A stretch of DNA of 36,900 bases from an uncultured Parvibacter sp. (GTDB lineage Bacteria > Actinomycetota > Coriobacteriia > Coriobacteriales > Eggerthellaceae), in contig CANSTH010000009.1 in the NCBI GenBank assembly GCA_947649875.1, positions 1 through 36,900 of the forward strand, in the 5' to 3' direction. Positions 14,653-30,952 of the stretch are shown here, piece after piece. Below the pieces are notes generated by a model. That model did not search any database, had not been told where the DNA came from, and saw only the letters and a list, made by a program, of their open reading frames with translations. Every line of letters begins with the position of its first letter. Position 1 is the stretch's first letter. The translations under genes were made by a program, and so were the position numbers.

Positions 14653-14818
14653 GGCCTGAGTTCGGGGCAGGAGTTTTTCTGCTGTGGGGCGCTGCGGGTA
14701 GGGGAGTCCTGCTGCGGCGCGCCTCGGGGAATGGGGGTGGAAGTCCCCCGCTATGCCAGTAACCGTAAAGCCCGCCTGTGGGCGGCGAAGTCGGAATGCC
14801 GAGCCGAACCGATAGGCC
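14653..14818 (+). ncRNA. Cobalamin riboswitch-like aptamer
   Basis: The leader of the DUF4430 lipoprotein gene has the cobalamin-aptamer core: GGGAA, then GGTGGAAGTC within a G5/C5 stem (14733-14749), CGCTATGCCAGTAACCGTAA (B12-box-like), a GC hairpin (CCGCC / GGCGG), and AAGTCGGAATGCCGAGCC. The ends can close as P1: GGCCT (14653-14657) with AGGCC (14814-14818), and TTCGG (14661-14665) with CCGAA (14804-14808). The ribosome-binding site of the next gene starts four bases after P1, so translational control is plausible. Identification is by eye, not by covariance-model search; ligand could be adenosylcobalamin or a smaller cobalamin. Confidence 0.78.
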
Positions 14819-28944: not shown

Positions 28945-30600
<1,656 letters not shown>

Positions 30601-30636
30601 GGTGCTTGTTCCGCCGGTCGGACGACCGGCGGCACC
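30601..30636 (+). repeat. Hairpin directly after groEL
   Basis: CCGCCGGTC and GACCGGCGG pair with a GGAC loop, and an outer GGTGC / GCACC extends the structure. It begins one base after the groEL stop. No T run follows, so it may protect the mRNA 3' end or slow ribosome-free transcript decay; function is not known. Confidence 0.55.
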
Positions 30637-30649
30637 GCTTGACGCTGCG

Positions 30650-30912
30650 AGGCCCCCTGGCCGGCATCTTGGCTTTCAAGGCTTTCCTTCGCGTACCGAA
30701 GTACGCTCAGCCGCCTTTCAAGCCAATCTGCTCGACCAGGGGGCCTCTCGCTTACGTGTTTGGACCTGTGGGATTCTGAAGCGGCCATTTCGAAAGCGTC
30801 CTTGGCCTTCAAGCCTTACCCTCACGTGCGAAGCACGTTCGGCCGGCTTTCAAGCCAATTACGGACGCCGCAGAAACCCTCGCTTACATTTCTGGACCTG
30901 TGAGGTTCTGAA
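30650..30912 (+). repeat. Tandem structured element after groEL (two units, 132-bp period)
   Basis: Unit 1 (30650-30780) has an outer 11-bp stem AGGCCCCCTGG / CCAGGGGGCCT, inner stems TTGGCTT / AAGCCAA and AAGGC / GCCTT, and an apical CGTAC / GTACG hairpin, then the tail CTCGCTTACGTGTTTGGACC. Unit 2 (30796-30912) repeats this plan: outer GCGTCC / GGACGC, inner AAGCC / GGCTT, apical CGTGC / GCACG, and a tail with CTCGCTTAC, TGGACCTGTG and TTCTGAA. Shared landmarks lie 132 bp apart. Several paired positions differ between units but stay complementary. I see no convincing reading frame. It is a structured RNA or DNA repeat of unknown role. Confidence 0.7.
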
Positions 30913-30925
30913 CAATTCTGCTGAG

Positions 30926-30952
30926 GACGGCCCCAAACGGGGCCGTCTTTTT
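30926..30952 (+). terminator. Rho-independent terminator of the groESL transcription unit
   Basis: GACGGCCCC and GGGGCCGTC form a perfect 9-bp stem around AAAC, followed by TTTTT. It lies 325 bases after the groEL stop, so the tandem structured element is expected to be part of the groESL transcript. Confidence 0.92.

Follow-up and report, generated by a model that had tools for sequence, protein, structure and literature searches.

Two units behind groEL in Parvibacter belong to a dispersed, structured element family of one bacterial order

The groEL 3' region and its two units

The window, that is, the whole stretch of 36,900 nucleotides analysed here from an uncultured Parvibacter sp., carries groEL as an open reading frame on the plus strand (28972-30600), 97-98% identical to the groEL of other Parvibacter records. 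Its stop codon precedes two structured units, and past both of them we read from the sequence the intrinsic terminator of the groE operon (30926-30952, plus strand), with a 9-bp stem (30926-30934/30939-30947), the loop AAAC and a T5 run at 30948-30952. An earlier note on this DNA had placed two units, spaced by 132 bp, between the groEL stop codon and the terminator. Both the direct repeats and the arms were confirmed: a 34-nt repeat pair (30747-30780/30879-30912) is 85% identical and a 31-nt pair (30697-30727/30829-30859) 87% identical, each at a spacing of 132 bp. The compensatory pairs that had been pointed out (AAGGC/GCCTT against AAGCC/GGCTT, CGTAC/GTACG against CGTGC/GCACG) are present in the sequence, as are the differing outer stems of the two units.

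The element begins earlier than the unit first read, with a small hairpin before unit 1, as in most relatives. This inverted repeat, hairpin 1 (30608-30635, minus strand), starts 7 nt past the groEL stop codon and, read on the folding strand, comes after the rod on its 3' side; in relatives, an equivalent small hairpin separates the stop codon from the element. The rod of unit 1 (30637-30768, minus strand) is supported by its fold, by alignment and by pair counts, and it consists of an outer stem (30649-30663/30733-30747, arms 93% complementary) followed by inner stems and an apical loop. The rod of unit 2 (30771-30900, minus strand), supported by its fold, is diverged and has neither its own hairpin 1 nor the gene-proximal linker. 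In the covariance model R1 (see below) the two rods score 136.6 and 95.5 bits, respectively, both being among the 30 sequences used to build that model.

Folding of the groEL 3' region gives a z of -7.0, and none of 100 dinucleotide shuffles folded equally well. Unit 1 reaches -75.5 kcal/mol on the minus strand versus -65.4 on the plus strand, and unit 2 reaches -56.1 versus -48.6 kcal/mol (z of -3.3 and -2.8, respectively). The plan of stems and tails drawn up before is present, but its better-folding strand is the minus strand and not the groEL strand. That the units form an RNA of the groEL message is only half borne out: they come before the terminator, but selection on pairing acts on the strand complementary to that message.

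Each unit has a 34-nt tail, which is the first of the direct repeats given above (unit 1, 30747-30780; unit 2, 30879-30912, with the same role). Its plus strand reads CTCGCTTAC...GGACCTG...TTCTGAA in unit 1; on the folding strand it becomes CAGGTCC...GTAAGCGAG, the 5' end of the element, and relatives mostly have CAGG(TCC) as their 5' border. The tail had been called conserved. It is indeed found in both units, but a search of the own genome allowing up to 3 mismatches returned the window copies alone, and a slightly shorter form searched in 60 relatives again matched only these. We conclude that the conserved part is the rod and not the tail as written, and the tail pattern was given up as a family marker in favour of the rod. 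The confinement of the exact tail to this locus would suit a chance structure or a tandem duplication local to groEL with no wider meaning. This explanation is scarcely conceivable, being refuted by covarying copies elsewhere in the genome, the family and the order.

A covarying family dispersed through one order

A DNA-level search with the region gave 20, 18 and 11 matches in three members of the genus. R1 was built from 30 Parvibacter copies and comprises about 133 nt and 37 pairs. It matches 102 of the 138 genomes of the family (E <= 1e-3, with scoring limited to 24 candidates per genome) and 148 of the 297 genomes of the order (1e-4, at most 11 candidates scored per genome). In a sample of the phylum, 13/296 genomes match, and all 13 come from the same family or order. 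Eight genomes from other families of the order hold 18, 28, 36, 3, 32, 7, 3 and 3 copies; the own genome and that of P. caecicola hold at least 24 each; Adlercreutzia, Gordonibacter and Parvibacter are among the named genera with matches. No match to the element was found in the plasmids, phages and viral contigs searched. At gathering score, no Rfam 15 family matches the window element or any of 15 further loci, and a relaxed threshold gave nothing credible there (best E 0.33). The sole Rfam gathering match in the window lies elsewhere, an AdoCbl-II (cobalamin) riboswitch at 14712-14809 on the plus strand (46.7 bits).

The two window units are thus members of a family of dispersed, structured elements of about 130 bases each, known so far solely from the order containing Parvibacter. 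That this family exists as described is hardly open to doubt, and we consider its identity secure. The idea of an undescribed structured element or of a mobile repeat in the operon was right in kind, with covarying copies genome-wide. The covariance model and the genome and family search suggested in the earlier note returned copies, also at homologous groEL 3' ends, and what would have spoken against the idea, no further copies and no covariation in such regions, is not what we observed.

On the folding strand the element opens with 5' CAGG... and continues as a rod of about 100 nt; the linker (CGCAGCGTCGAGC-like) comes next, then usually a second, short hairpin, and last the complement of the stop codon. 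CGTC is frequent in the linker (CGCAGCGTCGAGC), where CGCC or GGAC also occur. Covarying stems make up the rod; between them lie conserved tandem mismatches of purines, mostly G.A, and a U.G/G.U step. In the Parvibacter alignment, which includes 30 of 31 elements (the truncated copy L021 was excluded), both sides have changed in 24 of the 37 pairs of the rod in minus orientation. Standard pairs make up 94.8%, compared with 75.8% in shuffles and 34-47% with the partners slid, and the covariation score is 0.553 versus 0.210 shuffled, a value that none of 500 shuffles reached.

A larger set combined 70 of 94 listed rows with all 64 of a second set, giving 134 and, of these, 123 distinct copies; reverse-strand matches, duplicates, the truncated L021 and L024 and matches below 59 bits had been excluded from the 94 rows. 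Across 34 mostly Watson-Crick column pairs of these copies, 3774 of 4176 cells (90%) are Watson-Crick. Two more column pairs are mostly U.G and G.U (94/121 and 92/123, jointly in 74/123). On the folding strand, tandem purines form symmetric internal loops, with GA on both sides in 78/123 copies for loop 2 and 108/123 for loop 3, and with loop 1 all-purine in 111/123. Copies outside the family, for which 28 of 30 were aligned (one duplicate and one truncated copy excluded), share the inner pattern GGTGCC..CAGATTG/CAAGATG..GGTGC, GAAAG.../...TTGA and the apical GCGTAC/GTACGC. Apical loops of the C(TTCG)G type are common on the folding strand; since the apical-loop tally contained misplaced loops, only the counts of this type and a separate list were used. 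Hairpin 1 has GNNA tetraloops on the folding strand in 54/59 cases, just 8 of them GNRA. Its strict pattern, which is narrow, occurs 3 times in 433 kb of the own genome and not at all in 400 kb of another. A subtype with another apical internal loop (CCAAG/CGCCGTG, not CTGAG/CGAAGGAAA) was noticed among ABMPRH_67_1 copies (L020/L128, L017, L023, L029, L032).

Strand, siting and turnover of the copies

The two strands of the element are not equivalent. RNA folding energy is lower on the strand opposite the gene in 122 of the 123 copies (mean -78.4 versus -63.7 kcal/mol), DNA parameters make this strand the more stable in 121/123, and outside the family the antisense strand is the more stable in 30/30 copies. 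The alifold energy is -74.3 for the folding strand versus -42.5 for its complement. Among the mismatches of the folding strand in the 34 column pairs of the 123 copies, there are 196 G.U against 54 A.C or, per mismatch type, 98 G.U, 27 A.C and a mean of 19 for the eight others. This excess indicates that the folding strand tolerates G.U as a pair and that its complement treats G.U nearly as a mismatch. According to the folding energies, the alifold result, the balance of G.U and A.C, the U.G/G.U columns and the tandem-purine loops, we take the strand opposite the gene to be the functional strand. Hairpin 1 has no G.U excess on the folding strand (20 vs 30).

In long quasi-palindromes, one arm can be corrected from the other. 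A function of the double-stranded DNA, as a cruciform or as a site for a topoisomerase or another protein, could be accompanied by covariation created by template-switch repair between the arms. Neither process predicts a strand bias, and arm correction should erase the tandem G.A loops, yet these were kept (78/123, 108/123 and 111/123, as above). REP/BIME elements are described as binding DNA proteins in part of PMC2817692, which lends this explanation a precedent, but we regard it as very unlikely.

The element is locked to the gene whose stop codon it follows. The called gene 3' of the folding strand points toward the element in 116/120 cases (94/97 in the family, 22/23 outside), counted over 153 copies, 33 of them without a gene call, with genes from a simple codon-bias ORF caller and not from annotation. 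In 63/93 cases the distance between stop codon and model end is 20-45 nt, a gap that corresponds to a spacer of 0-8 nt and hairpin 1. Copies outside the family often have their outer stem directly against the stop codon or overlapping it. Downstream, the next gene is convergent in 28/105 cases (19/84 in the family and 9/21 outside, with backgrounds of 28% and 36%). As convergent pairs are close to or below background, the element was rejected as a 3' UTR of the convergent neighbour. In Pfam, scanned for 10 of 49 genes picked from 78, the genes before the element encode DAHP synthase, GreA, thioredoxin, rubrerythrin, GAPDH, RF-1, a family-3 binding protein, a glutamine synthetase C-terminal domain, EF-Ts and L20. 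Some copies follow tRNA genes, of which tRNA-Ala and tRNA-Leu were recognised by eye. Codon adaptation of the followed genes is weakly raised above background in the own genome (p 0.03, 12 genes) and raised in P. caecicola (p 2e-5, 15 genes against the background of the own genome). A gene of about 210-230 aa, an element and a gene starting MTDTTA... recur together in the own genome (L015, L018, L027) and in P. caecicola (L008, L019), the elements of the own-genome pairs being 96-98% identical.

The position directly past stop codons would also fit a sense 3'-UTR element, whose co-transcribed complement would stabilise the mRNA or modulate translation termination like E. coli REPs. The complement, too, folds into a strong hairpin, with the mean of -63.7 kcal/mol given above, and according to part of PMC12306157, E. 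coli REPs less than 16 nt from the stop codon reduce translation. However, on the sense strand A.C outnumbers G.U about fourfold, the opposite of RNA pairing rules, and G.U is barely commoner there than other mismatches. In addition, several copies stand past terminators or after tRNA genes, and in 20/153 copies a terminator-like hairpin separates the element from its gene. Consequently, we judge a sense 3'-UTR role distinctly unlikely.

Copies 3' of groEL vary among close relatives. GroEL proteins 97-98% identical are followed by no copy in P. caecicola, one in ABMPRH_67_1 and two in the window; R1 also matches 3' of groEL in L071, L121, L118 and L132, and most other groEL 3' ends compared have a terminator without the element. 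A function specific to groEL is not supported, since other copies follow unrelated genes and tRNA genes and the groEL of P. caecicola lacks a copy. The groES-groEL spacer of Adlercreutzia, Eggerthella sinensis and other records is filled by a longer related rod, again opposite in strand to the genes (L091:2831-2984, L080:2825-2977, L134, L098, L085, L067, L112 and L122, minus strand, mostly 30-46 bits). In nine folded spacers, the minus strand is 14-35 kcal/mol more stable than the plus strand. These spacer rods stand outside our counts, except that of L117 (62.9 bits), which is included in the 123.

Further signs of turnover come from other loci. Truncated older copies precede complete ones at L224, L226, L102 and L031, and copies of one genome are up to 92% identical with unrelated flanks. 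At the orthologous pair L006/L216 the gene is 98% identical and the elements are different. In 14 orthologous locus pairs, chosen from 51, we counted 30 double-compensatory and 21 G.U-type changes versus 37 disrupted pairs. Patchy and differing copies together with compensation in place indicate that loci are both replaced and maintained. Sequence conservation ends about 5 nt ahead of the model start; no clean pair of empty and filled sites and no target duplication was found.

Compensatory change in place at orthologues, pairing selection on the antisense strand, the tie to a single gene and its stop codon and apical loops of the UNNG type are what would be expected of an antisense border RNA. 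Here, transcripts arriving from downstream would fold into rod and hairpin and be stopped or neutralised before the coding region. The followed genes, which include GreA, EF-Ts, L20, GAPDH, thioredoxin and RF-1 and have raised codon adaptation, are in line with such a role, and bidirectional bacterial promoters are documented in part of PMC10268837. Against it, a T5 run occurs within 60 nt behind the structure, in its own direction, in just 1/153 copies; this also led us to reject an intrinsic terminator in the folding direction. Nor is there a promoter signal ahead of the folding strand, the best -10 score for sigma70-type signals being 7.59 versus 7.78 in shuffles, and no conserved positions were found upstream of it. 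An autonomous small RNA gene was rejected on the lack of such a sigma70-type signal. Convergent neighbours are not enriched (28/105), and presence is patchy between sister species. Altogether, an antisense border RNA is an unlikely explanation, albeit one to be taken seriously and the next in probability after the ssDNA reading given below. Its elaboration, by which order-wide border RNAs with three tandem G.A modules would bind a putative lineage-specific factor, halt transcripts at the stop codon and shield housekeeping genes, seems rather unlikely.

A REP-like reading and known systems

In our judgement, the element is REP-like and formerly or still mobile, and its functional form is a single strand of antisense polarity, either DNA or RNA from antisense transcription. 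Within this, it is tempting to propose a mobile palindromic element whose folded ssDNA intermediate would be the functional form, a proposal that we hold tentatively and at somewhat less than an even chance. A palindromic DNA cassette would spread by copying and could be lost, and gene 3' ends would tolerate it or put it to use; the antisense-polarity strand of the cassette would fold as an ssDNA intermediate, to be recognised by a putative recombinase or transposase. The cassette borders, the dispersal, the patchiness, the siting at stop codons and the GNNA loops of hairpin 1 argue for this reading, a GNNA preference being a mark of stable DNA rather than RNA loops. Several observations weigh against the ssDNA form. 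No transposase is tied to the element, and two genomes with at least 24 copies each have no Y1 transposase, the compensation at the 14 orthologous pairs exceeds what a structure needed only for movement would predict, unless it came from template-switch repair of the palindrome, hairpin 1 lacks the G.U bias and the common C(TTCG)G apical loops suit RNA.

We looked for enzymes that could be associated with the element. Y1_Tnp is found in 71/138 family genomes, but neither in the own genome nor in P. caecicola; of 26 Y1 loci searched, one has an R1 match, at a distance of about 1.4 kb from the ORF of the transposase. An origin driven by RAYTs was rejected, as 25/26 Y1 loci have no element and the loci inspected carry other inverted repeats. 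RAYT-like Y1 loci (L191-L203) are flanked by another palindromic repeat (GACAAGGGGACGG.../ATGAGACAAAGGGACA...), and in P. caecicola (L065) a repeat similar to that of the RAYT locus (GACAGGGGACGGGGG...) follows the groEL terminator. RVT_1 (reverse transcriptase) occurs in 0/3 genus members, which rules against a retroelement such as a group II intron or a retron.

With this family, a well-sampled order of gut bacteria gains a large, strongly covarying structured element that had not been listed before. If the constraint on the antisense strand is real, the readings of REP-like repeats as message hairpins or as ssDNA or antisense RNA become separable, and they could be tested at dozens of loci per genome. 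The element would also aid intergenic annotation in these genomes and perhaps explain assembly breaks.

Among known systems, ERIC, BOX and NEMIS-type repeats are dispersed structured repeats of about 100-150 nt without a gene of their own. The element resembles them in size and dispersal and is set apart by its strand bias and stop-codon lock, which, to our knowledge, have not been described for them. Integron attC sites fold on the bottom strand into an imperfect hairpin just after their own gene, with locked orientation. The element shares with them the antisense-strand hairpin after a gene and the orientation lock; it differs in that no attC-type boxes were seen by eye and in following scattered chromosomal genes and tRNAs instead of lying in cassette arrays.

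We found no description of the element in the open-licence PMC text searched. The main texts of PMC3733652 and PMC2817692 lack the words 'Eggerthella', 'Slackia' and 'Coriobacteri', and 'Eggerthella', 'Collinsella', 'Gordonibacter' and 'Coriobacteri' are absent from the available text of PMC12306157. Palindromic structured-RNA candidates from the human microbiome, read on both strands, have been suggested to originate from REPs or terminators (PMC8040213, in part). The four candidates shown there are associated with Bacteroidetes or phages, unlike the element, and the main text leaves Eggerthella, Gordonibacter, Coriobacteri and groEL unmentioned. The closest likeness is to REPs and BIMEs, dispersed extragenic palindromes mostly downstream of genes near stop codons. 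As described in part of PMC3733652, they are found between co-directional and convergent genes, with conserved unpaired positions and tandem or clustered copies, all of which the element shares, and like REPs it is sited close to the 3' ends of coding regions (116/120). REPs are 20-40 bp long with stems of 8-9 bp (CGTC type), and they form GTAG and CGTC superfamilies with RAYT transposases, the letters being those of an unpaired tag at one end (PMC3733652, same part). In contrast, the element has no link to a Y1 transposase, comes from one order among those sampled and is locked in antisense to its gene, and it measures about 130 nt, has 34-37 pairs that covary and contains several tandem G.A loops.
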